Below, in pieces: positions 8,292 through 19,137 of a stretch of DNA of 64,000 bases. A program made the translations under genes and the position numbers. The notes under the pieces were generated by a model. The model saw nothing but the letters and a program-made list of their open reading frames with translations. It searched no databases and was not told the origin of the DNA. The stretch's first letter is position 1. Each line of letters opens with the position of its first letter. The DNA comes from Deltaproteobacteria bacterium GWC2_55_46. Lineage in GTDB: Bacteria; Desulfobacterota; GWC2-55-46. The stretch is taken from assembly GCA_001595385.3 (NCBI GenBank), contig LVEI03000001.1:682001-746000 (forward strand), in the 5' to 3' direction.

Positions 8292-8491
8292 CCTCGCCAA
8301 TATATCAAAACAGGTTTTGAAGTCAATAGGTGACGTTGAGCCCGTCACCACCGGGGGAAACGAAAAGAAAATTTAGTTTTAAAGAGGTCATAAAACCGGT
8401 AAAGCCGGTTTTCGCTGGGACATTTGCGTTGACAGCGAATGGACGCTGTGTTAATTTTTTCTTTTCTTTCCCCGCATCCCAACCGAAGAAA

Positions 8492-8578
8492 GCCGGAGTG
8501 GTGAAACAGGCAGACGCGCGGGACTCAAAATCCCGTGGGAGCAATCCCGTGAGGGTTCGATTCCCTCCTCCGGCACCA
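8492..8578 (+). tRNA. tRNA-Leu (anticodon CAA), target of the integrated element
   Basis: An 87-nt class II tRNA: acceptor GCCGGAG pairs with CTCCGGC, anticodon arm CGGGA-CTCAAAA-TCCCG gives CAA, a long variable arm GGGAGCAATCCC follows, T-arm GAGGGTTCGATTCCCTC, and CCA is encoded (8576-8578). The sequence from the anticodon stem onward was probably supplied by the island, since another version of a tRNA-Leu 3' half sits at the far end of the element (18985-19043). Confidence 0.96.
8520..8537 (+). other. attL core in tRNA-Leu
   Basis: The 18-bp block GGGACTCAAAATCCCGTG of the anticodon arm is identical to 18985-19002. Weaker similarity continues through the T-arm, CCA end and about 35 bp beyond. 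Recombination in the anticodon arm is typical of tyrosine integrases that use tRNA genes. Confidence 0.88.
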
Positions 8579-8644
8579 ATAAAATCAAGGGCTTACAGGG
8601 TTTTTAAGGAATTCTACCTGTAGCCCTTTTTCTTTAGCAAGGTA

Positions 8645-8668
8645 TTTGTCCAACCCCTGTCCAACCTA
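8645..8668. repeat. left copy of 24-bp end repeat (probable integrase arm site)
   Basis: Exact match to 18845-18868 in the same orientation. Internally it is two copies of TGTCCAACC separated by CC. Tandem short boxes near both ends of an integrated element fit arm-type integrase binding sites. Confidence 0.75.
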
Positions 8669-8669
8669 A

Positions 8670-8707
8670 TAAAAAAGACCGCCCCCCTTTTCAGGGAGCG
8701 GCCTTCC
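8670..8707 (-). terminator. terminator at the end of the element's long minus-strand gene string
   Basis: On the minus strand GGCCGCTCCC pairs (with two wobbles) with GGGGGGCGGTC around a GAAAA-type loop and is followed by TTTTTTATT. It lies between the last small gene and the left att site. Confidence 0.8.
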
Positions 8708-8856
8708 GGCATGGGTGCCTGGGGTTATGTGGCGGGTGTGAGGAAAGTTATTATAGGGAGCCGGACGCCGGGCCGGATAACCAGTATCCGTCATGGTCCC
8801 GGACGCCCGCTCCCAGTGTGCCCCTCAATGCCGATACATCGAGAGGGCAGCCTGTA

Positions 8857-9027
8857 TCAAGCTCCTAATGCTATCGCGTCGAGTTCGCGCCTCGGGTGCT
8901 CGCCCCAGGGTGATTCCTCAAAGCCTCTATGCTCAAGAGGCCCGGCGCATTTACCGCAAAGGCGATCTGCCTCGATGGTCATAAAGTCGAATGTAGAGCC
9001 GCAAGCCGAACAGATATACACGTTCAT
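8857..9027 (-). CDS. 56-aa zinc-ribbon-like protein of the element
   Basis: Sequence begins MNVYICSACGSTFDF and contains a second pair CGKC; the C-x2-C ... C-x2-C arrangement fits a small zinc ribbon. The ATG at 9027 overlaps the TGA of the preceding gene (ATGA), so translation is probably coupled. It is the last of four tiny genes before the element's terminator. Function is unknown; such small ribbons are common in phages. Confidence 0.68.
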   Translation of the reverse strand: MNVYICSACGSTFDFMTIEADRLCGKCAGPLEHRGFEESPWGEHPRRELDAIALGA

Positions 9028-9272
9028 CGTTTCCGTCCTTTCATTCCGGGTGTGTTCCGGCGCTCCGGTAGAATAACCAGCTGTATCAGCTTATTGACGG
9101 TCCTGAAGTACGCCGCCCGGAGCCTTGCCATTGCCGCCTTATCGTCTCTAAGGTGTGCCTGGACGGAAGCCCGGTCGAGCCTCTTTTCCTCTGCCCATAG
9201 AGCTTTGAGCCTGTCCATGTACGCCTCTGGAGCTTCCGTTGAAAATAGACCGATTAAAGGGCATTCTCTCAC
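9024..9272 (-). CDS. 82-aa helical hypothetical protein of the element
   Basis: Charged, helix-rich protein (EAYMDRLKALWAEEKRLDRA; RLRAAYFRTVNKLIQLVIL) with a basic tail. Its start overlaps the end of the 9269-9595 gene and its stop overlaps the start of the next gene, each by four bases. I recognise no family. Confidence 0.65.
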   Translation of the reverse strand: MRECPLIGLFSTEAPEAYMDRLKALWAEEKRLDRASVQAHLRDDKAAMARLRAAYFRTVNKLIQLVILPERRNTPGMKGRKR

Positions 9273-9595
9273 GGAAGAAAACCAGAATCAGAGGGCGCAA
9301 CCTTCTTCATAAATGGGCGCAAATGGTCAACATTGCCCTTTCTTCCTCTCAAGGCCGGATTCGTGCCTAACCTGTAGTCCCATAAGCTGCATTTATGGGG
9401 AGACGGATTCAGGATGTTACCCTGGCAGGAAACAACCTCGGCGCGGCTGCCCACGCAATCGTGGCAATGGCCCCTTATCCTCTTCAGCGGAGACAACCGG
9501 CGGTCATTCAGATTACAGGAAGTGCTCTCACAATCAAACCGCTGCCCGGACTTGCAGTAGCGGCATTGAACCTCAATGGCTTTTCTGGGAGTCAT
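9269..9595 (-). CDS. 108-aa cysteine-rich protein of the element
   Basis: Start chosen at 9595 (MTPRKAIEVQCRYCKSGQRF) because it follows GAAGGTG and overlaps the stop of the preceding gene. Cysteine pairs CRYC, CESTSC, CHDC and a later C and CSLW pair suggest one or two zinc sites. Similar cysteine-rich small proteins occur in phages, but I cannot name a family. Part of the ATGA-coupled run 9735-8857. Confidence 0.65.
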   Translation of the reverse strand: MTPRKAIEVQCRYCKSGQRFDCESTSCNLNDRRLSPLKRIRGHCHDCVGSRAEVVSCQGNILNPSPHKCSLWDYRLGTNPALRGRKGNVDHLRPFMKKVAPSDSGFLP

Positions 9596-9735
9596 ACCCG
9601 TTTCACCTTCTTTGTAGGCTTCTTTCCTTCCTGTCCGTAAAGAACGTCCGTGGGCTTTAAATCCTCTTTGTTGATTACGCAATACCCGCCCGGACATTCC
9701 GGCCTTACTATCCTTATAGTTTCAATCTCACTCAT
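9592..9735 (-). CDS. 47-aa hypothetical protein of the element
   Basis: Short frame MSEIETIRIVRPECPGGYCV ending in a lysine-rich tail, start preceded by GATGAGGTG, stop overlapping the next start by four bases. Unknown function; supported mainly by ribosome site and coupling. Confidence 0.55.
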   Translation of the reverse strand: MSEIETIRIVRPECPGGYCVINKEDLKPTDVLYGQEGKKPTKKVKRV

Positions 9736-9837
9736 ATTAGCACCTCATCCATTTATTAGGAGCCCCCCGCCCCGGAGGAGATTGCCGGAGCGGAGGGCAG
9801 AGAAGGGACCCGCATGGCAACGGGCCCCTTCAGCTTG

Positions 9838-10977
9838 CTATCCGAGCAGTATTGCTGCGTGCTCGGGTTTCACCATTTTGTAGCCCCATGCCGCCGAAAC
9901 TTCGTAGTGCATCTGGCGGTAGCCGGGATACATTGCCACTTCAAAAGCCAGGCCAGTCCTCGCGTCCGAGATAGCCAGCCTATCCGAAGCCAGGTCCCCG
10001 CCAGAAGGAAGCGCGGGCAGCCTCGTTGCAAGGACTATCGCGGAACGGGCAAAGGCCAGATTGTTGACCGAATTCGCCCCGATGGTCATAGCCGTGGCGC
10101 TCCCCGGAATAGCTTGCCGGAGCCCAGGAGCCGCTATAACTATCGTCCCCGGTTCCGTAACCCCGGTCGTAACGATATACTTATTTGAGTCTCCGGCAAA
10201 TGTAACTGTGTCCCCCGCCAGGACGGTCCCGGAGCCGGTGATTATCGGGATGGAAGTAGTCCCGATAGCAAACCCCGCGTTCGTCGTGGTGTAGGACGTG
10301 CCCGTGCCTTTGGTGTGGCTCTTGACCTGCGCGGACTCCTGCACGCCGAAGCCGTGAAGGGAGAGAAGCTCGCCCTGTCTGAGAGTCGCATCGCCGCCCG
10401 CCTGGTTCGCGTTTGTCAACTGCGTCAGCGTCCTCAGGGCCGTTCCTGCGTCCGTGTTGATAACCAGGTGCAGGTCAGATAACGGACTGCCGTTATTACT
10501 GAGAATCTTACGGAGGGCCGCCGTGTCCGCGAGAGTCGTAGCAAAAGGCGTTGTTCCTGCCGTACCAGTAGCCCTCGAAGCTGCAACATACAGACTCGCA
10601 ATGTCGGCTTCTATCTCGTTAACGATAGCCCTCATGGCCTGTTCTATCTGCGCGGACTGAATCGTACCAGCGCCGGGGCCGTGGTTTACTCCGACCTCTT
10701 CTTCGCCCGTCCACCTGAAGGGCGCTCTCCTGGACTTGCTTATGGTAACTTCGACGTTGCCGATGGTCTGATCGCCGTCGTCCGGGACCGTCGAGGCCGG
10801 AGTAACATCGGAAACGGTAGCAGCCGGGGCCACTATCGAGCGGACGGACTGGTTAAGGGCCGCGCGTTCAACTCCGCTGTCGCGGGTGACGGACGGAATG
10901 AATCCGGTAAGTTCGCGTGAAACAGTGTCAAGGGCCTGGTACAAAATAGGCACAAGGTTTGTGAGTGTGTTTGACAT
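9838..10977 (-). CDS. major capsid (coat) protein, P22 gp5-like
   Basis: Forms the icosahedral shell. The 379-aa protein begins MSNTLTNLVPILYQALDTVS and contains VTISKSRRAPFRWTGEEEVG, which resembles P22-type coat proteins, followed by helix-rich and then glycine/threonine-rich beta segments (about 220-310, GTSYTTTNAGFAIGTTSIPI; VLAGDTVTFAGDSNKYIV) that could be the extra Ig-like/I-domain insertion, and a C-terminal part with MYPGYRQMHYEVSAAWG. Somewhat shorter than P22 gp5 (430 aa). It follows the scaffold-like gene by 9 bp. It is the only clear virion gene in the element. A hairpin at 9802-9831 follows it. Confidence 0.82.
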   Translation of the reverse strand: MSNTLTNLVPILYQALDTVSRELTGFIPSVTRDSGVERAALNQSVRSIVAPAATVSDVTPASTVPDDGDQTIGNVEVTISKSRRAPFRWTGEEEVGVNHGPGAGTIQSAQIEQAMRAIVNEIEADIASLYVAASRATGTAGTTPFATTLADTAALRKILSNNGSPLSDLHLVINTDAGTALRTLTQLTNANQAGGDATLRQGELLSLHGFGVQESAQVKSHTKGTGTSYTTTNAGFAIGTTSIPIITGSGTVLAGDTVTFAGDSNKYIVTTGVTEPGTIVIAAPGLRQAIPGSATAMTIGANSVNNLAFARSAIVLATRLPALPSGGDLASDRLAISDARTGLAFEVAMYPGYRQMHYEVSAAWGYKMVKPEHAAILLG

Positions 10978-10986
10978 TTGAAGCTC

Positions 10987-11541
10987 CTATTCTTTTAGCT
11001 GCCCGCCGGAGCGGACAAATGTGGTTTTTCGTGGAGCGTCGAGCCTGTCAAAATCGGCCCGACGCATGGTTTTAGTCTCCCCCGCATTGTGGCGCATGAA
11101 GGTGCCCGCGCCCGCTGTGGGTGCGGCTTTCGCAAGGTGCGGGTTATCGGTCAAAAACCCCTCAAGATATGTTTTGACGGACAAAGGACTGCCAGCCTCA
11201 TCGAGACGGACAACGCCTTTTTCGTCAACTACCTCGAGTACACCATCTTCTCCGATTGCGATATTTTCATTGATTAGCTTCGCAACCTGTATTCCGTTTA
11301 CCGCGCCAGTCGAGGCCACTTCCGCTTGTAGAAGGGCCTTCCTGATACGCTCGTTCTGTCCGTCCCTCTCCTTTTGGAGAGTATCGTTACCCGCCCGGAG
11401 CGTTTCAATCTCGCCCTGGGCTTTTGCCTCGGCCTGTACAACGGCTTCGGCAAGTTCTTTTTCGTGCTTGGCCTTTATCTCGCCAACCCGCTTGTTTATC
11501 ATGGCGTCAATCGTCGCCTGCTGTTCTTTAGAAAAGTCCAT
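10987..11541 (-). CDS. scaffold-like protein preceding the coat gene
   Basis: 184-aa, strongly helical protein: MDFSKEQQATIDAMINKRVG followed by a long charged coiled coil (about 20-70) and an Ala/Arg-rich C-terminus. Position directly before the coat gene, coiled coil and acidic/basic layout fit an internal capsid scaffolding protein, which would direct coat assembly. The start at 11541 follows GGGAGGAG, and this ribosome site sits directly against the IS30 insertion. Its N-terminus resembles that of the truncated gene at 12613-12777. Assigned by context and composition; not a firm family match. Confidence 0.62.
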   Translation of the reverse strand: MDFSKEQQATIDAMINKRVGEIKAKHEKELAEAVVQAEAKAQGEIETLRAGNDTLQKERDGQNERIRKALLQAEVASTGAVNGIQVAKLINENIAIGEDGVLEVVDEKGVVRLDEAGSPLSVKTYLEGFLTDNPHLAKAAPTAGAGTFMRHNAGETKTMRRADFDRLDAPRKTTFVRSGGQLKE

Positions 11542-11559
11542 TATTTATCTCCTCCCGAA

Positions 11560-12612
11560 TTCAACCTCGAAGTGCAACGAAGGGAGCAGCTACTTCGATT
11601 GGTTTTTTGAAGCCCAGGCATTTTCTGGGTCTGTTGTTGATTAAGAACTCGATTCTGGCGATCTGGTCGTCCGTTATCTTACTGAAGTCGGTGCCCTTGG
11701 GCAAGTACCACCTGATGAGGCCGTTTACATGTTCGTTTGTGCCGCGCTGCCATGAGGCGTAGGGGCGCGCGAAGTAGCACTTGATGCCTATTGCCGATGT
11801 AATGGCCTCATGCCTTGAATTCTCGGTGCCGTTATCGAAGGTCATGGTCCGTCTGGCCTTTGACGGTAGGTCTCCGAGTCTCTCCACAACGGCATTATAG
11901 GTGGCCTCCGCTGTCTTGGCGTCGAGCTTGGTAAGCATAAGATACCTGCTCTTGCGCTCCACCAAGGAGTTGAGGGCTGCAAGGCTCTTTCTGGAGACCA
12001 GGCTGTCGCCTTCCCAGTGGCCGAACTGGATGCGACTTTCAACGGCTTGAGGCCGCTGGTCTATGGGAACGCGGTTGGGTATCTTGGTCTTACGCTCTTT
12101 TCTGCCGATGCCTTTGTTCCTTCGCTTGCGGTGTGCCCTCCTGAGGCACCGTATAAGCTCCTGACGGTCTTTTGTGTCAGGATGGTAGATGTACTGGTAA
12201 ATGGCCTCGTGGCTTATTGAGAGCCCCGGCTGGTCGATCTCGATTCTCCCAGCTATTAGCTCCGGCGACCAGCCATCCTTGAGCATGGAGCGCACATAGG
12301 CCTCGATGCTCTCGTTCTTGAGCCTCTGATGCGTATTGGCCTGTTTCTTTCTCTCTTCGGCTCTGCCGTGTGCCCTGTGGGACATGTAGAGCCGATACGC
12401 AGGCGTTGCATTGCGGCGAAGTTCCCGTGAGACAGTGCTCTTGCTTCTTCCGAGGGCCTTGGCTATTTCCCCGAGGGACTTCTCCTCGGCAAGCATGGTG
12501 GTTATTAAGTCTCTTTCAGACAAAGACAGGTGAACATATTCTCTTTTCGGCATAGCCACTTAGGATAGCATCTTCCTTCCTGCTCTCCCAAGTGTTGCAC
12601 TTCGCTATTGAA
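11560..12612. mobile_element. IS30-family insertion sequence
   Basis: About 1.05 kb with imperfect terminal inverted repeats: left TTCAACCTCGAAGTGCAACG (from 11560) and right, read inward, TTCAATAGCGAAGTGCAACA (from 12612). One transposase gene fills it. It splits the 3' end of a small element gene from the scaffold-like gene. CGG occurs at both junctions and may be the target duplication if the left end is placed two bases further out. Confidence 0.87.
11561..12553 (-). CDS. IS30-family transposase
   Basis: Catalyses transposition of the surrounding IS. N-terminal helix-turn-helix region (LSLSERDLITTMLAEEKSLG, IAKALGRSKSTVSRELRRN) is followed by a DDE integrase core: D in FGHWEGDSLV, D in MTFDNGTENSRHE and E in WQRGTNEHVNGLIRWYLPKG. 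The C-terminus NNRPRKCLGFKKPIEV is characteristic. Start at 12553 (MPKREY) preferred over the ATG two codons earlier. At 330 aa it is intact and presumably active. Confidence 0.93.
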   Translation of the reverse strand: MPKREYVHLSLSERDLITTMLAEEKSLGEIAKALGRSKSTVSRELRRNATPAYRLYMSHRAHGRAEERKKQANTHQRLKNESIEAYVRSMLKDGWSPELIAGRIEIDQPGLSISHEAIYQYIYHPDTKDRQELIRCLRRAHRKRRNKGIGRKERKTKIPNRVPIDQRPQAVESRIQFGHWEGDSLVSRKSLAALNSLVERKSRYLMLTKLDAKTAEATYNAVVERLGDLPSKARRTMTFDNGTENSRHEAITSAIGIKCYFARPYASWQRGTNEHVNGLIRWYLPKGTDFSKITDDQIARIEFLINNRPRKCLGFKKPIEVAAPFVALRG

Positions 12613-12777
12613 CCGGCGCCTTAAAAATCCAAATAGTTTTTTGTTTTTTAATTCCTCAATCTCTGCCTTGAGTGCGTCTATCTCGGCTTGTGCTTTGCGC
12701 CGTCCTTTGCCGTATGCTTCGTTGATTAATCTGTCAACGTGTATCTGTTGTGTAGGCGTGAAGGAAACCCGCTCCAT
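12613..12777 (-). pseudogene. element gene truncated by IS30 (N-terminal 55 codons)
   Basis: Reads MERVSFTPTQQIHVDRLINE and a lysine/glutamate-rich helix up to GFLRRR, then enters the IS (frame stops at 12505 inside it). Its N-terminus is similar in layout to the scaffold-like protein (FTPTQQIHVDRLINEAYGK versus FSKEQQATIDAMINKRVGE). If the IS is removed with a CGG duplication, the frame would continue REEINNGLF and stop over the scaffold start, giving about 63 aa. Its ATG overlaps the stop of the upstream gene (TAATG). Confidence 0.65.
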
Positions 12778-13442
12778 TATTCCCCCCCCAGGGCCGCCTT
12801 TGCTTTTGCCGCCTCAGCCTCGTGGAGTTCAAGGGCGCGGAGCTTCACGGGATCGCTGTACTCTGAGGCCGCCGTTAAAGAGGTCTTGACTGCCGCCTGG
12901 ACGTGCTCATTCAAGTCCCGATAGGTATCACGGGCCTTGACGATATCAGGGGCCGCCGTCTGAAAATACTGTTCACGAAACTTTCCAATATCCTCAGAGG
13001 AAAGGCCGGTGAGCATCGAGGGCGCGTCAATGATTGCCGCAAGTGATGAACCATCACGGGACTCAATCATGGCCTGTACGACCTTTACCTTTTCTCCGGG
13101 TGCCATGCCCTGTAGCCTCTGCCTTATCTCGACGGCATAAGGACCGTTGACAAGGCCGCTGTGCTCTCTCAGGCTGGACTCAAAAGAGGCCCCGGCGGAT
13201 GTAGCCTTCGTGGTTATAGCGGCCTCAGCCGCCTCTGCAAGAACCTGAAGCCTGGCCGCTGCCCTCCCTACATTCAAGGCGTGGTCCCCGCCCTGAGGGT
13301 TTGCCCGGATAAATTCCACGGCCTTTAAAGCGTCGGCAAGGTCATTGAGCGTCGTCTGCAAGGCTTTGTGGTCCCGGTTCTGCTTGTCGTGCTTTTCCTG
13401 AAATCTTACCTTGAGTGTGTCCAGTGCTTTCGTGTAGTCCAT
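12777..13442 (-). CDS. 221-aa helical hypothetical protein of the element
   Basis: Alanine-rich, almost entirely helical protein with no signal peptide (MDYTKALDTLKVRFQEKHDK ... AAEAAITTKATSAG ... KVVQAMIESRDGSSLAAII). Start at 13442 follows GGAGAGAAA. I recognise no family. Location upstream of the scaffold and coat genes suggests a virion- or assembly-related role, but a regulatory role cannot be excluded. A 170 bp gap at 13443-13616 upstream could hold its promoter. Confidence 0.6.
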   Translation of the reverse strand: MDYTKALDTLKVRFQEKHDKQNRDHKALQTTLNDLADALKAVEFIRANPQGGDHALNVGRAAARLQVLAEAAEAAITTKATSAGASFESSLREHSGLVNGPYAVEIRQRLQGMAPGEKVKVVQAMIESRDGSSLAAIIDAPSMLTGLSSEDIGKFREQYFQTAAPDIVKARDTYRDLNEHVQAAVKTSLTAASEYSDPVKLRALELHEAEAAKAKAALGGE

Positions 13443-13616
13443 TTCTCTCTCCTGTATGTGGGCGCGGGATTGCGCTTTATTTGACTAAAAAGGTCTAATT
13501 TGTACGGAAATGTAACCCTCGAATTTTCATGGGAAAATAGTTGAAACCTGCGCCTTGGAATCCGCACGTTATGTAACAATCTCTGAACCCCAAGAGGGGG
13601 TAAGTGTTTGATATCA

Positions 13617-13799
13617 TTAATTAAATTCCTTTTTATCCATCACGGAAACATCCGGCTTACAAGTGCACGGGCCTTTCCCTTTCAGGCGCGGGCAGTCGTG
13701 GTCATGCTTAATTAATATGTGGCCTATGCCGCCCTTCGGTGTTTGGGCCAGCTTCCCCGCCTGATAGCCCTCTATTAATTTTTTAAGCCAGTTTTCCAT
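13617..13799 (-). CDS. 60-aa hypothetical protein downstream of the iterons
   Basis: Starts MENWLKKLIEGYQAGKLAQT and ends with a cysteine-containing part (HDCPRLKGKGPCTCKPD) that could bind metal. It lies directly beyond the iteron array. No clear ribosome site is visible because iteron sequence runs into the start, so this call is moderate. Confidence 0.5.
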   Translation of the reverse strand: MENWLKKLIEGYQAGKLAQTPKGGIGHILIKHDHDCPRLKGKGPCTCKPDVSVMDKKEFN

Positions 13800-13809
13800 T
13801 TAATCCCTT

Positions 13810-13936
13810 GTCCGGTTTTATGTCCGTTTTGCGTCCGGTTTGCGTCCGTTTTGTCCGGTTTACCTGTTTTGCCTGTGTCCGGTTTGTCCGGTTTATGTAT
13901 GTAATACATAACCGGACAGGACAGTACAACCGGACA
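13810..13936. repeat. iteron array with central dyad, probable replication origin of the element
   Basis: GTCCG(G)TTT units start at 13810, 13822, 13833, 13844, 13853, 13877 and 13886, mostly 9-12 bp apart (about one helical turn). Inverted units (CCGGAC) follow at 13912 and 13930. The last direct unit and first inverted unit form a dyad, TCCGGTTTATGTAT against ATACATAACCGGA (13887-13916), with an AT-rich centre. The array begins 7 bp beyond the primase-polymerase stop codon. Confidence 0.8.
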
Positions 13937-13942
13937 GGACCA

Positions 13943-15766
13943 TCAAAAGACGGGTGAGACAAAGCCGTGTGCTTCATGTACCGCTTGAGCTTCGATTAAC
14001 GCCCTTGTAACCTCAGCAATCCTCTGGCGTGGAAAGTCCTCGTCCTTGAGTGCATCTTTCCAATCAGCTAAAGAAATCCTGGCGGCTTCGCCTTCGCGGT
14101 CCTGCCGGGTGCTCCAGATATTCATCAAGACTTCATTTGCGCGTGTCTGCCACTTCCCCCGTCCTTGCTTTCCCTTCGCCGCCCGTGGTTCGTAGGACGT
14201 AAGCTCAAGGGCCGCGCCGGTGATAATCTCGCCGGTGTCGGGGTCTATCAGGTCGAGGTCAACTGGCCGCAGCCGGAACGCCATAGGTTCAGGGTGCTCG
14301 GCGTCTTTCATTTTTGTGGCCTCAAAGCGAATGGTCCCGGTTTCGTCTTTGTCCAGCCGGTACTCGGAATCGAGGGCCGCCTTGAGGGACATCGCCCCGC
14401 GCGCCCTTGTCTTATCAGCATGGCCGCTGTGGTGAACCAACAGGACGGTCGAACGATAGCGCGCCCGGATTGCGTCAGCCGCCGAAATTGCTTTAGACAT
14501 ATCTGAAGTGCTGTTTTCGTCCGCTGGGCCAAAGTTCCGGGCCAGGGTGTCGAATATGACGACGCGCGGAGGTCCTGCGGAAGCTGCGATATCATCGATC
14601 GCCTTTAGAACCTCGTCGAGCGCGTCCGGGTCTACAAGGGCCGTGGGAGACATAGAGACAAAGAAAGGCGCGCTATCGTGGCTTACGCCGCGCAACGCGC
14701 TCCAAGCCATCAACCTGCGCTTTATTCCGTTCTGGCCTTCGCCGCATACGTAGACAACGGGGCCGTGATCAGCGATAACATGGCCGTGAAAATCCGTACC
14801 CGTAGCAACGCTCAGGCCGATATCCATCGCCCAGAAGCTCTTGCAAGTCCCAGGGTCCCCGAATACGAGGGCCAGGGCTTCCGCTTCCAGAATGTCACGC
14901 ACAACCCACCTCGGAGGGCGCGCTTCGATTGCGCTTGCATGGACTAATTTAAAATGACGGTCTGTTTTTGTTCCGGCCTCTGGAGTTCCCGCCGGTTCGT
15001 ATCGTGCTACGCTCTGGGCAATGCCCTCGACCTCGGCATCAGGGAGGGGAGGACTACATTTTTCTTGATTCTCTACTCGGAGCGCGGCCAGGATTGCGGC
15101 CTCGGAGAAACCGCGCCGCCGCATGGAACCGCCCTGGCTGGTAAGAGACGCGTTACGCGCCCCCTCTGGCATGACTTCCCCTATCGCCGGAGCTGTGGTC
15201 TTTTTTGCCGCTGGTTTTGCCAGTTCCAAAAGCCAAGCCGGGGCCTCTGCTATCTCCTGTCCGGCGAGCGGGTCAGATGAAAGCTCCCAGGTGTAAATTT
15301 TGCCGTTCCTATGAAGCGACGGCGGCACCACGATATAACCGCCATCGGCCTTAATATCAACTTCCGCGAGTACGCCAGTTTTGCTCGCAAGCCCGCCAAC
15401 CGGCCTCTTGAAAATCAACTGCCGCCCGCGCCCCGTGTGCTGCTCAGCGGTGTCAGGCATCGCGTAACCTTCGAGCGCCGCCTCGCCTTGCTCGCCGTCG
15501 ATATCGCATGATGTAATGCCGCTTTCCTCGCCCGTCACAACCCCGATATTTGCTTCCGGCCATTGCGCCCACCACCTGCGGATTATGGCCGTGTCGGTTG
15601 TGGCATCGTCGCGCCCGTTCATGGTGCGCGGGTGCTTGCCAATGGATGTGCAATCTTTTTTACGGCAAGAGCAACCACCATTTAAAGGCGTGTGCAGCGG
15701 AAAGACGGGCCAGCCTTTTTCGGCATAGGCAAGCGCGTGTGTTATAAGGTCATCCGCGCCCGTCAT
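13943..15766 (-). CDS. bifunctional primase-polymerase with RecA-like ATPase domain
   Basis: Likely replication initiator/primase of the element. Start set at 15766 (MTGADDLITHALAYAEKGWP), overlapping the upstream stop as TAATG; upstream in-frame sequence is rejected. Residues about 1-190 form a Prim-Pol domain (GWPVFPLH, Cys cluster CSCRKKDC, catalytic-type SCDIDG, HTGRGRQLIF). A short primase C-terminal segment follows (about 215-260, RNASLTSQGGSMRRRGFSE). From about 290 a RepA/AAA_25-type ATPase has Walker A GDPGTCKSF, VVYVCGEG and Walker B-like VVIFDTLARN with LVHHSGHADKTRARG. 607 aa. The iteron array lies just downstream. Confidence 0.88.
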   Translation of the reverse strand: MTGADDLITHALAYAEKGWPVFPLHTPLNGGCSCRKKDCTSIGKHPRTMNGRDDATTDTAIIRRWWAQWPEANIGVVTGEESGITSCDIDGEQGEAALEGYAMPDTAEQHTGRGRQLIFKRPVGGLASKTGVLAEVDIKADGGYIVVPPSLHRNGKIYTWELSSDPLAGQEIAEAPAWLLELAKPAAKKTTAPAIGEVMPEGARNASLTSQGGSMRRRGFSEAAILAALRVENQEKCSPPLPDAEVEGIAQSVARYEPAGTPEAGTKTDRHFKLVHASAIEARPPRWVVRDILEAEALALVFGDPGTCKSFWAMDIGLSVATGTDFHGHVIADHGPVVYVCGEGQNGIKRRLMAWSALRGVSHDSAPFFVSMSPTALVDPDALDEVLKAIDDIAASAGPPRVVIFDTLARNFGPADENSTSDMSKAISAADAIRARYRSTVLLVHHSGHADKTRARGAMSLKAALDSEYRLDKDETGTIRFEATKMKDAEHPEPMAFRLRPVDLDLIDPDTGEIITGAALELTSYEPRAAKGKQGRGKWQTRANEVLMNIWSTRQDREGEAARISLADWKDALKDEDFPRQRIAEVTRALIEAQAVHEAHGFVSPVF

Positions 15767-15987
15767 TAAATGCCGTCCTTCGTCCTGGCCTGCAGCCACG
15801 CGCAAAGGTCTTCGACGCGATAGAAAATCTTTCGGCCCATTCTTCCTCTCGCCGGGCCTTCGCCCAGGCTGTCGAGGTTCGCCAGCGTCCTCGCGTTCAA
15901 AAGTCCGCCTGTAAACTTCGGGACTTCGTGCCTCGCCACTATGCCGGACGGCCACCTTTTAGCGAGTTCCTGAAAGTCAAAAGTCAT
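15766..15987 (-). CDS. AlpA/excisionase-like helix-turn-helix protein
   Basis: 73-aa protein MTFDFQELAKRWPSGIVARH ... GRMGRKIFYRVEDLCAWLQ. The pattern of a small winged HTH with 'Y.VEDL.AWL' at the end is that of the AlpA/Xis-type DNA-binding proteins that control excision in satellites and prophages. It precedes the primase-polymerase with a TAATG overlap, and is itself preceded by a terminator, so it begins a transcription unit. Start at 15987 follows GGAGGGGAC. Confidence 0.75.
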   Translation of the reverse strand: MTFDFQELAKRWPSGIVARHEVPKFTGGLLNARTLANLDSLGEGPARGRMGRKIFYRVEDLCAWLQARTKDGI

Positions 15988-16011
15988 AATGTCCCCTCCT
16001 TTTAAAATAAA

Positions 16012-16044
16012 AAAAACCCACGCTGATTTTTCAGCATGGGTTCA
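16012..16044 (-). terminator. terminator between the 280-aa gene and the AlpA-like gene
   Basis: On the minus strand AACCCATGCTGA pairs with TCAGCGTGGGTT around AAAA and is followed by TTTTTTTATTTT. It separates the integrase/cargo genes from the replication and assembly genes. Confidence 0.88.
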
Positions 16045-16112
16045 TCTTACGCTTTATGAATATTTGTTCCCGGTACATTCGGAAGATTTTTTATCCTCGA
16101 ATGTTCCGATTC

Positions 16113-16955
16113 TTACCGTTTCGGTTTTCGCGCCTTAGTGATATTGTCCGCCTCAATATCCTCATCAAAAAGAGCTTTTACAATTCCCGCCAAGCTCTCA
16201 TCCGTCAGCTTAAATCTCTCCGGAAGGTTGCAACAAATGTCCCGGTCCTGCATAATACAGTCTTCAAAGCCTCTTACGAAATCGGCATAACTTGTTTTGC
16301 GCGAATCGCTTACCGCGTCAACCTCAGAACGGCAGCCCGATATGGGGCTTTCCATCTCACGCTTTAGAGCCGCGAGAACATCCTGTATTCGCGGCATATA
16401 CTTCCCCATGCGCAAGCCACCATCAACCTTTGCCAATATGGGCACTACATGGCCTTCAAAAAGGAATTGCCTTTCCACTGTTCCAGATTCCAGCCCTGCC
16501 CTTTCAACCAGGTGTAAGGGGCAAGTATTGGCCGCGCTTGTCAAGTAACTCTCCTCTTTAATTCTGTTACGCTTATCGAGGAATTTTATCAGTTCCTCGG
16601 TTGTTTTAATTATGTCCTCCTGTGCTTCCTCTAAATCTTTACGATCCCTCTTTATGTTACGCTTTTCCTCATAGACTATCGCTGCATCAACGATTGCGGC
16701 CAAAACCGCTCGTCTGCCTAATCCGCCGTTTCCTCTCGGCGTGGAGCGGTCTGTTATCTTATGTTCAATCTCGGCATATACCGGGTTCATAACATCCGAG
16801 TTTTCTTTAAGTCGCTTGAGTATGTTTTTTTGCTCGGCTGTCGTCGTCTGTATTATTCTGTTGAGGCCGGGGTCAAAATAGCCGTTGATTCCCTCATCAA
16901 TGAAATCGTCAGCCCATTTATGTGAACCGTTTTGGGGCCCTTTAAATCGCTTCAT
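16113..16955 (-). CDS. 280-aa unknown protein in the cargo position
   Basis: Start at 16955 (MKRFKGPQNGSHKWADDFID) with GGAGAGGTG seven bases upstream; the GTG three codons earlier is within that ribosome site. Contains NPVYAEIEHKITDRSTPRGN, an Ala-rich helix, a lysine/glutamate coiled coil (about 98-135) and a C-terminal helical part with scattered cysteines. No membrane segment or known motif. AT-richer than neighbouring chromosome genes, as are the next two genes. It lies between the ART-like gene and the AlpA-like gene, where satellites often carry accessory or defence genes. Function unknown. Confidence 0.6.
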   Translation of the reverse strand: MKRFKGPQNGSHKWADDFIDEGINGYFDPGLNRIIQTTTAEQKNILKRLKENSDVMNPVYAEIEHKITDRSTPRGNGGLGRRAVLAAIVDAAIVYEEKRNIKRDRKDLEEAQEDIIKTTEELIKFLDKRNRIKEESYLTSAANTCPLHLVERAGLESGTVERQFLFEGHVVPILAKVDGGLRMGKYMPRIQDVLAALKREMESPISGCRSEVDAVSDSRKTSYADFVRGFEDCIMQDRDICCNLPERFKLTDESLAGIVKALFDEDIEADNITKARKPKR

Positions 16956-17055
16956 TTTTTGCACCTCTCCGTGCCTCGCTTTTTATTATTGCCCCGAAGC
17001 CGGAAGCGAGAGAGAGTTCCGGTTTTCGGCCCGTCGGCCTATCGGGGCAAGCTGT

Positions 17056-17622
17056 CTATCCCTTCTTTACAGGTATCTTTGTCAATTTCATATCTTTAGG
17101 TATGTAGCAAATAAATTCTTGTTCCTTTCGCTCATTGATATAGGCATATATATTTTCAACCGGAATAATAGCCTTGAACACTACAGGGTCCGACAAATAC
17201 GCATATCTTGATGAAAACCACTTTGCCAGCTCAAGGTCTGCCGTCCAGGACAGACCTCTTACCCTTCGCGCCGCACCTTTTCCGGCAACTCCACGATAAA
17301 GAGTAAAGGGACCGTTACCGGGCAAGGGATCTCCAGCCGATAACAGCCGCGTGCGGTCTGCTATATCAAAAAAAAGGTAATCAAGGACAACCTTAGAAAT
17401 ATGCATATTGTTTAATCGACAAATTATGAAGGCATGGAGAAGGGCATCTTCGAATAATCCCGCTTTCTTTAGTGAAATATGATTGTCACAAACAAAGGCT
17501 AAGTTTGCCATATTGTCCATCTTGATAAGAACGCCGAATATATCGCGTTCTTCCCAACACTGCAGAGCTTGTTTTCTTAGAGATAAATCTATAAGAGATA
17601 AATCCAATTGTGTGTTATCCAT
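17056..17622 (-). CDS. probable ADP-ribosyltransferase-fold protein (R-S-E type)
   Basis: 188-aa soluble protein. The C-terminal half carries the spaced motif set of R-S-E ADP-ribosyltransferases: YRG (109-111), SWT (125-127) and E-x-E (E167, E169 in KEQEF), with VFKAIIPVENIYAYI between as the expected beta strands. Members transfer ADP-ribose from NAD to protein or nucleic acid; the target here is unknown. The N-terminal half (1-100) is helical and unrecognised. It starts 5 bp after the integrase stop codon, so it is expressed with the integrase. No antitoxin is obvious unless the 280-aa neighbour serves. Motif reading by eye, not a search result. Confidence 0.55.
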   Translation of the reverse strand: MDNTQLDLSLIDLSLRKQALQCWEERDIFGVLIKMDNMANLAFVCDNHISLKKAGLFEDALLHAFIICRLNNMHISKVVLDYLFFDIADRTRLLSAGDPLPGNGPFTLYRGVAGKGAARRVRGLSWTADLELAKWFSSRYAYLSDPVVFKAIIPVENIYAYINERKEQEFICYIPKDMKLTKIPVKKG

Positions 17623-17627
17623 CGGCG

Positions 17628-18812
17628 TTATCCCTTCTTTACCAGCTCAATCACTTTGCCCTGTTCAGGCACAAGGGCCTGTGCAAGTCCGCTCATAGCG
17701 CGCCTCTGCGTGTCCTCGTCTCCCTTTGCATACCTGAAAACCATTGAGGGAGTTTTCCAGCCGAAAAGTATTTGAAGGTCTTTAACAGGCGTTCCTCTCC
17801 GGGCCGCCAGTGTCGCCGCCGTATGCCTCAAGCTATGGAAAACAACTTTGTCCCGCGCTCCCCTGCCCTTGTTAAGTTCAAGGTTCTTGACGGCAGTCCT
17901 GAAGGCTTGCGGGGTCTTTTCAAACGGGGTTCCGTCCTTCATGGTGAATACATACTCGCCGGGGCCGCCTATGCCGCGCCGCTCCATCATCTCAATGACG
18001 GCTGGCACAAGGTAAACCGTGCGCGGTTCTTTGTTCTTGGTGTCAGGGAATAAGGCCGTGCTTCTGGCCAAGTTCACGTGCTCCCAAGTAAGCCGCGCCG
18101 CCTCGGAGAAACGGCATCCGGTGAAGGCACAAAACATGGCTATGTCGTGAGTTGCCGTTTCGGTCACGCTCAGATAATCGAGTATGCTTTTTAACTCTGT
18201 CGGAGTAAGTACCCTGAGCCGGGTATTATCCATTTTGGGAAGCGTGACGCCGATTGCCGGGTTATCCCCTGCCTTTACCAGCTTCCTCTTTGCCGCGTGT
18301 TTCCATATCCTGTAAAGGGTCCCAACGGCATACTGTTGTGTACGCGGGGTCAGCTTATCCTCCCTCATACGGTCAAGCATCCGATCAACATCTTCCGGCG
18401 TGATTGTTTTAATAGGCTTGTGGCCCATAACCGGAAAAATCCGCTTCGTGTAATGCGCAAGCTCTTTTTCCCAGGAGGTTTCCTTTATCCTGGCCTTGAG
18501 GTTATGGACATAATCCTTGTCCCAAAACTCTGAAAGGGTAAGGCCCTCTGCAAGCTGTAGGGCCCTCTTTTGTTCCTCTAAGGATTTTTCCTCTCGATAG
18601 GTTTGATGTTTTTTGAGTAGATCGCCTCTTTTATCTGAGGCCGTTTTTTCTGTCCAGTCTTTTTCAGAGGCCCAACCCAGGGCCTCCTGTACCATCTTCC
18701 CGTTCAATTTATAAAATATGGTGAAGTACCTATCCGGTTTAGCGCCATGCGTCCTTGTCGGGTGTTCGCGCCAACGGACGCCAGTCCTTTTACTCTTTAT
18801 CCATTTCGCCAT
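17628..18812 (-). CDS. int: tyrosine recombinase (integrase)
   Basis: Catalyses site-specific integration into tRNA-Leu. 394 aa with an N-terminal DNA-binding region (YFTIFYKLNGKM), a core-binding domain (about 90-180) and a catalytic domain with R234 (TGCRFSEAARLTWEHV), H326-x-x-R329 (HSLRHTAATLAARRG), W352 (LFGWKTP) and nucleophile Y361 (VFRYAKG). The gene sits at the end of the element next to attR and the right 24-bp arm-type repeat, the usual place. Start at 18812 follows GGAGGTC. Confidence 0.95.
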   Translation of the reverse strand: MAKWIKSKRTGVRWREHPTRTHGAKPDRYFTIFYKLNGKMVQEALGWASEKDWTEKTASDKRGDLLKKHQTYREEKSLEEQKRALQLAEGLTLSEFWDKDYVHNLKARIKETSWEKELAHYTKRIFPVMGHKPIKTITPEDVDRMLDRMREDKLTPRTQQYAVGTLYRIWKHAAKRKLVKAGDNPAIGVTLPKMDNTRLRVLTPTELKSILDYLSVTETATHDIAMFCAFTGCRFSEAARLTWEHVNLARSTALFPDTKNKEPRTVYLVPAVIEMMERRGIGGPGEYVFTMKDGTPFEKTPQAFRTAVKNLELNKGRGARDKVVFHSLRHTAATLAARRGTPVKDLQILFGWKTPSMVFRYAKGDEDTQRRAMSGLAQALVPEQGKVIELVKKG

Positions 18813-18844
18813 CGGCAGACCTCCTTAAAATCCCGTGGAGTGTT

Positions 18845-18868
18845 TTTGTCCAACCCCTGTCCAACCTA
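18845..18868. repeat. right copy of 24-bp end repeat (probable integrase arm site)
   Basis: Exact match to 8645-8668. It lies 33 bp upstream of the integrase start, where it could also affect integrase transcription. Confidence 0.75.
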
Positions 18869-18984
18869 TATAGCTGAAACAGTGTGTTTTTACGGTAAGT
18901 CTCAGGAAGTCAGAATATCAAGGAAAACAGAGGAATGTCAAGGGGTTTGTGCGGTTTAGTGAAGTTATGGTAAGTAGTTCAAAA

Positions 18985-19043
18985 GGGACTCAAAATCCCG
19001 TGACCGCAAGGTCGTGCGGGTTCGACCCCCGCCTCCGGCACCA
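18985..19043 (+). pseudogene. attR: displaced 3' half of tRNA-Leu
   Basis: Starts with the 18-bp att core and continues as a different tRNA-Leu 3' half: variable arm GACCGCAAGGTC, T-arm GCGGGTTCGACCCCCGC, acceptor CTCCGGC, then ACCA. It has no 5' half. It was probably the original end of the chromosomal tRNA gene, displaced when the element brought its own. Confidence 0.85.
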
Positions 19044-19137
19044 TAATAAAATCAAAGACTTACAGAGTTTCTAAGACTTCAACATGAAACCCATTTTTCC
19101 TTGAAAGACGATTCTCTCCCTAAACTCTCCCTGAAAA

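Follow-up and report, generated by a model that had tools for sequence, protein, structure and literature searches.

An iteron array behind a Prim-Pol/RepA-type primase-helicase gene as the probable replication origin of a satellite-sized element

Introduction

For most uncultured phages and satellites, the origins of replication are unknown. In the genome of Deltaproteobacteria bacterium GWC2_55_46, within the 64,000-nucleotide stretch of contig LVEI03000001.1 analysed here as a whole and called the window, a cluster of short repeats surrounds an AT-rich dyad directly behind a primase-helicase gene. The locus raises two questions: what the array does, and which part of which protein reads it. 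Here we describe the array, the element that carries it and the protein encoded beside it, follow similar arrays through related loci, and weigh a replication origin against the other functions that the repeats might have.

Results

The repeat array and its dyad

In the window, seven direct iterons of the form GTCCG(G)TTT run along the forward strand from 13810 to 13894, starting at 13810, 13822, 13833, 13844, 13853, 13877 and 13886, that is, in steps of 12, 11, 11, 9, 24 and 9 bp. Two inverted iterons, AACCGGAC(A), occupy the reverse strand at 13910 and 13928 (13910 to 13936), closest to the primase stop codon. The dyad core, TTATGTAT-gta-ATACATAA (13893 to 13911, no strand assigned), has perfect 8-nt arms (13893 to 13900 and 13904 to 13911) and a 3-nt loop; with the flanking TCCGG and CCGGA it extends into a longer, imperfect dyad at 13887 to 13916. 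Seven direct units, a core of 77% A+T (13890 to 13911, against 47% and 40% in its two flanks) and two inverted units together compose the layout of a SaPI/PICI-type origin. The array ends at 13936, and six bases separate it from the stop codon of the primase-helicase gene (ORF end 13943, reverse strand). An earlier, sequence-only reading of this DNA had described the seven direct units, the two inverted units and the AT-centred dyad, and coordinates and control counts bear it out exactly. Its longer dyad arms are complementary apart from one extra T, and its placement of the array 7 bp beyond the stop codon is right as to adjacency, 7 being the coordinate difference.

The array score, defined as the most copies of one 7-mer on both strands within 250 bp at the stop codon, is 7 at this site; over 1265 other stretches of the window it reaches a maximum of 4, with a mean of 2.14. 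Every one of 20 Markov-shuffled windows held at most one unit per 127 bp. Genome-wide, no second cluster of units was found, and a double-unit pattern with two mismatches returned scattered single matches only.

The element that carries the array

The array lies within an integrated, satellite-sized element of about 10.5 kb (8520 to 19043) inserted in tRNA-Leu. One end (attL) is the tRNA-Leu itself (8492 to 8578, forward strand, with the repeated part beginning at 8520), and the other, attR-like end is a partial tRNA-Leu copy (18985 to 19043, forward strand). The element encodes a tyrosine integrase (17628 to 18812), a major head protein (phrog_283, E 3e-91; 9838 to 10977) and a head scaffolding protein (E 3e-6; 10987 to 11541), all on the reverse strand. 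The integrase, the specific attachment site, and the primase gene with its origin-like array, by which PICIs and capsid-forming PICIs are recognised, are all present. No terminase, portal or tail genes were seen among the element ORFs scanned, a set that leaves out some small ones.

Several further features accompany this core. A 24-bp direct repeat, TTTGTCCAACCCCTGTCCAACCTA, occurs just inside both element ends (8645 to 8668 and 18845 to 18868) and likely represents the integrase arm sites. The similarity between the ends continues beyond the 3' end of the tRNA (8579 to 8615 versus 19044 to 19080), a pattern that would fit an attachment site acquired in a different host. The element also encodes a transposase with HTH_38 and rve domains, which we take to be IS30-like. 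In the region 11561 to 12777, the transposase gene adjoins a short ORF (12505 to 12777) that weakly matches a scaffold family (phrog_14063, E 0.001), and the insertion sequence probably interrupts a second scaffold-like gene. Behind the array, a 60-aa ORF (13617 to 13799, reverse strand) has a 50%-identical counterpart behind the array of a relative, L193; the two share conserved Cys/His residues, and both sit directly behind the arrays of distant elements.

A sibling element, L014, resides on another contig of the same genome, at about 8429 to 16750, and ends near tRNA-Gln. Its genes include those for an integrase, for a scaffold homologous to that of the window element, and for the small subunit of a terminase; the ends of the two elements are also homologous. 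The L014 primase has a D5-type helicase in place of the RepA type, and directly behind it a repeat of another kind, built on TGTGACGGGT, occurs four times, with an array score reached by 7 of 385 control stretches. The two primase genes have only the PriCT joint in common (68% over 81 aa, 83% over 175 bp of DNA); therefore, helicase, C-terminal domain and array differ together.

Domain organisation of the primase-helicase

The primase-helicase gene (13943 to 15955, reverse strand) is listed from a GTG codon as an ORF of 670 aa. Its true start is probably further in, since residues 1-65 are disordered in the structure model, which has a mean pLDDT of 82. On the same strand, the protein consists of several domains: a Prim-Pol domain (PF09250, residues 74-241, E 4e-38; 15233 to 15736), PriCT_1 (residues 260-321; 14993 to 15178), an AAA_25, RSF1010-RepA-like helicase domain (residues 342-514, E 9e-36; 14414 to 14932) and, in the AF2 model, a C-terminal winged helix (residues 601-668; 13952 to 14155), the putative iteron-binding domain. 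The predicted winged-helix elements are H601-617, H629-638, H643-655, E659-662 and E665-668, in a block with pLDDT 89-97. The best Foldseek matches are the RSF1010 RepA structures 1olo, 1nlf and 1g8y, with TM (target) of 0.70-0.74, and 1g8y is the only PDB sequence match (phmmer E 1.1e-5). Because of these three domain hits, the modelled winged helix and the RepA fold matches, the protein is assigned, with its folds predicted, as a single chain that joins a Prim-Pol primase to a RepA-like helicase and a DNA-binding domain. The combination of Prim-Pol with a RecA-like ATPase rather than an SF3 helicase, proposed from the sequence alone, is thereby confirmed by domain search and by the fold and sequence matches to RSF1010 RepA.

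Arrays recur behind related genes

A search of 394 genomes of the phylum for PF09250 was positive in 49 genomes, at 66 places; 60 of these were taken, the window's own and five others being omitted, and 58 retain a stop codon and enough flank. In the 250 bp at the stop codon, 19 of the 58 reach an array score of four or more, and 17 are among the highest-scoring 1% when set against the other stretches of the same locus, with about 0.6 expected. A RepA-type set of 38 further loci (32 from an alignment of window relatives, six fetched earlier) gives 24 with at least four copies and 22 in the top 1%; the counts of both sets include near-identical copies, such as L169/L171, L176/L179/L180, L192/L202 and L211/L212/L213. 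Fewer than four copies are present at 39 of the 58 phylum loci and 14 of the 38 RepA-type relatives, four RepA-type loci among these (L195, L193, L203 and L008) having units visible by eye. The spelling of the unit changes with almost every element, with CCCAAAC, CGTAGTA, GTCATCA, GTCCGAA, CGGCACA and CTCGCAC as examples.

In the viral L016 family, 62 of the 74 loci found reach the stop codon, and all 62 have units behind it. In 60 of the 62, the unit is ACA preceded by three to five G, and L116 has GGGGTACC units; L113, whose sequence ends 50 bases past the stop codon, shows two G-rich ACA units in those 50 bases. In the complete 34.5-kb genome of phage MW202867, 8 of the 11 TGGGACA copies lie in one 112-bp stretch behind the gene, with direct units 9, 10, 10 and 15 bp apart. 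A comparison with homologous elements had been suggested as a check on the origin reading, and arrays do stand beside homologous primases in all three sets. In two complete phage genomes, cumulative GC skew shows no clear switch at the array; it is uninformative, because the genes mostly point one way.

Within one genome, L140 and L144 encode related Prim-Pol proteins (39.6% identical) and carry different arrays (GTGTCCGA versus CTGTCGC), as expected for two compatible replicons.

Dyads and hairpins

The L016 family contains 27 distinct dyad forms, 11 of which share one length and register; the other 16 were excluded for longer loops or odd length, or as the two L017-relative ones. In these 11, 97.7% of cells pair and four of eight pairs change on both sides, a covariation score reached by none of 500 shuffles. 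Such covariation favours a structure, either a cruciform or a single-strand hairpin, over a fixed sequence. With identical stretches taken once, and with many of the hairpins being pairs of inverted units, perfect hairpins with arms of at least 8 nt are present at 10 of 58 loci in the phylum set (controls 119/2134), 25 of 36 in the RepA set (71/1423) and 19 of 45 in the L016 and L017 families (46/1209).

A hairpin core with a C-rich, TATA and G-rich succession was considered and rejected. It is found at 3/58, 14/36 and 5/45 loci against 3/1756, 0/1170 and 0/991 controls, with a pattern devised after these sequences had been viewed, and the window dyad is without this CCCCTATAGGGG-like core known from other members.

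The C-terminal domain as the likely reader

Six AAA_25 proteins of 374-410 aa lack a Prim-Pol domain, and the 7.5-13 kb that surround them gave no Prim-Pol match either. Five of the six loci have arrays of 4-8 copies, and the sixth, L203, has a score of 3 and a hairpin. A Toprim-AAA_25 fusion, L192, is accompanied by six array copies. Arrays thus stand behind helicases without Prim-Pol or with Toprim, which ties the array to the helicase and the C-terminal domain.

In the L016 family, residue 598 is Q at all 55 loci with GGGACA units and K at all seven with four or more G. The residue is numbered as in L056 and corresponds to residue 80 of the modelled C-terminal fragment, right after helix 72-78; both this column and the definition of the unit, which takes in the GGGGTACC form of L116, were picked post hoc, with the data already seen. 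Of the 640 columns, none within the gene but that of residue 598 tells the Q set from the K set, two further separating columns being artefacts of the ragged N-terminal end, with letters in one of the seven K rows. In a tree of 60 rows built without the winged-helix domain, two short rows having been dropped, residue and unit change four times each, together; the independent pairs number only three to four, and the sign test, at p 0.25, cannot reach 0.05. Viral scans with L205 and L214 returned almost only self matches, and no second covariation family was obtained from them. A fold search with the L056 C-terminal fragment gave common winged-helix matches only, none with E < 0.001 (best Z 7.3); on its model, this predicted fold is a winged helix with no closer relative.

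The covariation suggests that the C-terminal winged helix, and not the primase as such, likely reads the repeats. The initiator-bound array of the sequence-only reading consequently keeps its origin layout but changes its reader, the winged helix being likelier than the primase in view of residue 598. The covarying homologues are viral, and the window protein is only about 31-33% identical to them.

Discussion

The array as a replication origin

With high probability, the array would be the replication origin of the element, its iterons bound by the winged helix and its dyad the place where the RepA-like helicase and the Prim-Pol domain act. The origin first proposed from the sequence gains support from the recurrence of arrays behind related genes and from the covariation of unit and residue. 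From these we infer, for the window element, iteron binding, unwinding, priming and hence origin activity in the following form. On either side of the AT-rich dyad, the GTCCGGTTT iterons would be bound by the winged helix of the primase-helicase. The helicase domain of that protein, RSF1010-RepA-like in fold, would load and open the core, and the strand thus exposed would be primed by the Prim-Pol domain, with the dyad as a possible site. Helicase, winged helix and origin would act as a single cassette, in which the unit varies from one element to another but fits the winged helix of the neighbouring gene's protein.

Other functions of the repeats

An operator array, with repeats that bind a repressor or activator of the head-gene operon behind, is unlikely. 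The position of the array would suit it: in the window, replication gene, array, small ORF, scaffold and head genes follow one another in a single transcription direction. However, the array stays constant while the genes behind it vary, 40 array-bearing loci falling into 30 classes with no common ORF within 2 kb; the unit tracks a residue of a replication protein; and a search for a sigma-70-like promoter at the window array, itself a weak test, gave none. Turnover of downstream genes within the L016 family was tried as a further test and discarded, as 50 of 52 loci form one linked class in which the array is not separable from the genes downstream.

Somewhat less probable still, the units might be single-strand template start sites for Prim-Pol, in the style of NrS-1 polymerase, and not duplex sites for a winged helix. 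According to the available parts of PMC7102993 and PMC8718748, NrS-1 polymerase does need an 8-nt template sequence, but the same partial accounts give the NrS-1 genome just two copies of its site. Arrays also persist behind helicases without detectable Prim-Pol and behind the Toprim-helicase fusion, and the covarying residue sits in the C-terminal domain.

A dyad working in RNA, where it would terminate or stabilise the primase transcript and leave the repeats as a by-product, is very improbable. The covarying stems of one viral family are what RNA hairpins would show, as would hairpins in single-stranded DNA, but a search of the window array gave no terminator-like site, and the direct units outside the dyad are retained in both orientations. 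In pRN1, moreover, the terminator hairpin behind the gene is dispensable and the large stem-loop is not, as far as the accessible text of PMC4234260 goes. Integrase or excisionase arm sites, brought to mind by the TGTCC-containing 24-bp repeat at both element ends, are least probable of all, the array lying about 5 kb from either end with a unit, GTCCGG, unlike the end repeat GTCCAACC.

A portable helicase-origin cassette

Beyond the origin itself, we lean slightly towards a broader reading in which one portable cassette unites a RepA-type helicase with its C-terminal winged helix and an iteron-dyad origin. It would be present in many phages and satellites, with Prim-Pol, Toprim or no primase domain, and would be exchanged as a block, as between the two sibling elements of this genome, whose primase genes have nothing but the PriCT joint in common, each copy with its own origin code and each unit matching the winged helix encoded next door; residue 598 (Q or K) would set the length of the G-run in the iteron. 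Proteins differing at this one residue should then prefer different repeats. If the origin does lie directly behind the helicase gene and the final domain encoded there reads its unit, origins could be found by sequence; if the cassette exists as described, both origins and mutual compatibility could be read from it. Judged from sequences, what appears to be new here is that the Prim-Pol/RepA type has an array, that such arrays extend to phages and to helicase-only genes, and that one residue is a candidate for reading them. A published layout special to PICIs would thereby be extended to phages and to elements with RepA-type helicases.

Comparison with known systems

The SaPI Rep helicase is of the SF3/D5 type. 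The window array resembles the SaPI/PICI arrangement in standing immediately 3' of the replication gene, with iterons flanking an AT-rich core, and differs from it in the helicase, which is AAA_25 with an RSF1010-RepA-like fold and not SF3/D5, and in its Prim-Pol primase. Because of this helicase, the window origin is classed as working like the SaPI/PICI type, not as a member of it. In the SaPI/PICI origin, as the available portion of PMC6092414 has it, two iteron sets surround an AT-rich core directly 3' of the rep or pri-rep gene, and SaPI Rep reads its iterons via a C-terminal domain (PMC7581432, in the part accessible). The suggestion of a different replicon type accordingly stands for the non-SF3 helicase and falls for the layout, already published for SaPI/PICI. 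The SCCmec Cch2 helicase, in the same portion of PMC7581432, likewise uses a C-terminal domain to bind short direct repeats, which closely follow its own gene; unlike the window element, it comes with a different helicase and polymerase and three 5-nt iterons.

In the oriV of RSF1010 (IncQ), the iterons are read by RepC and the hairpins by the RepB' primase, according to partial texts of PMC4234260 and PMC4434180. The RepA-type helicase fold, an archaeo-eukaryotic-type primase, and iterons with a hairpin at the start site, a putative one in the window, are common to both systems. RSF1010 has separate RepA, RepB' and RepC, whereas the window has Prim-Pol, RepA-like domain and winged helix in one 670-aa ORF and its array directly behind the gene; the RSF1010 primase recognises the hairpin start sites ssiA and ssiB, and the window has a dyad. 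In pRN1, a stem-loop behind orf904 (PrimPol-SF3-winged helix) is needed for replication, with its structure kept and its sequence free (PMC4234260, accessible text). The window likewise has a structured element behind a PrimPol-helicase-winged-helix gene, but with iterons and a short dyad in place of a stem-loop of about 100 nt without iterons.

For Prim-Pol/RepA elements, no described origin was found in the open-licence PMC literature. A close counterpart in domain make-up is PrimQH of PrimPol-PV1, for which Kazlauskas et al. (2018) report a primase with PriCT, an ATPase of the RepA or another type, and a winged helix at the C-terminus, which in their suggestion may serve to recognise origins in such primases (PMC5862659, in the part available). 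The window protein has the same succession of PrimPol, PriCT-1, RepA-type ATPase and C-terminal winged helix. That part of PMC5862659 describes no origin sequence for PrimQH, and the arrays presented here would supply one.
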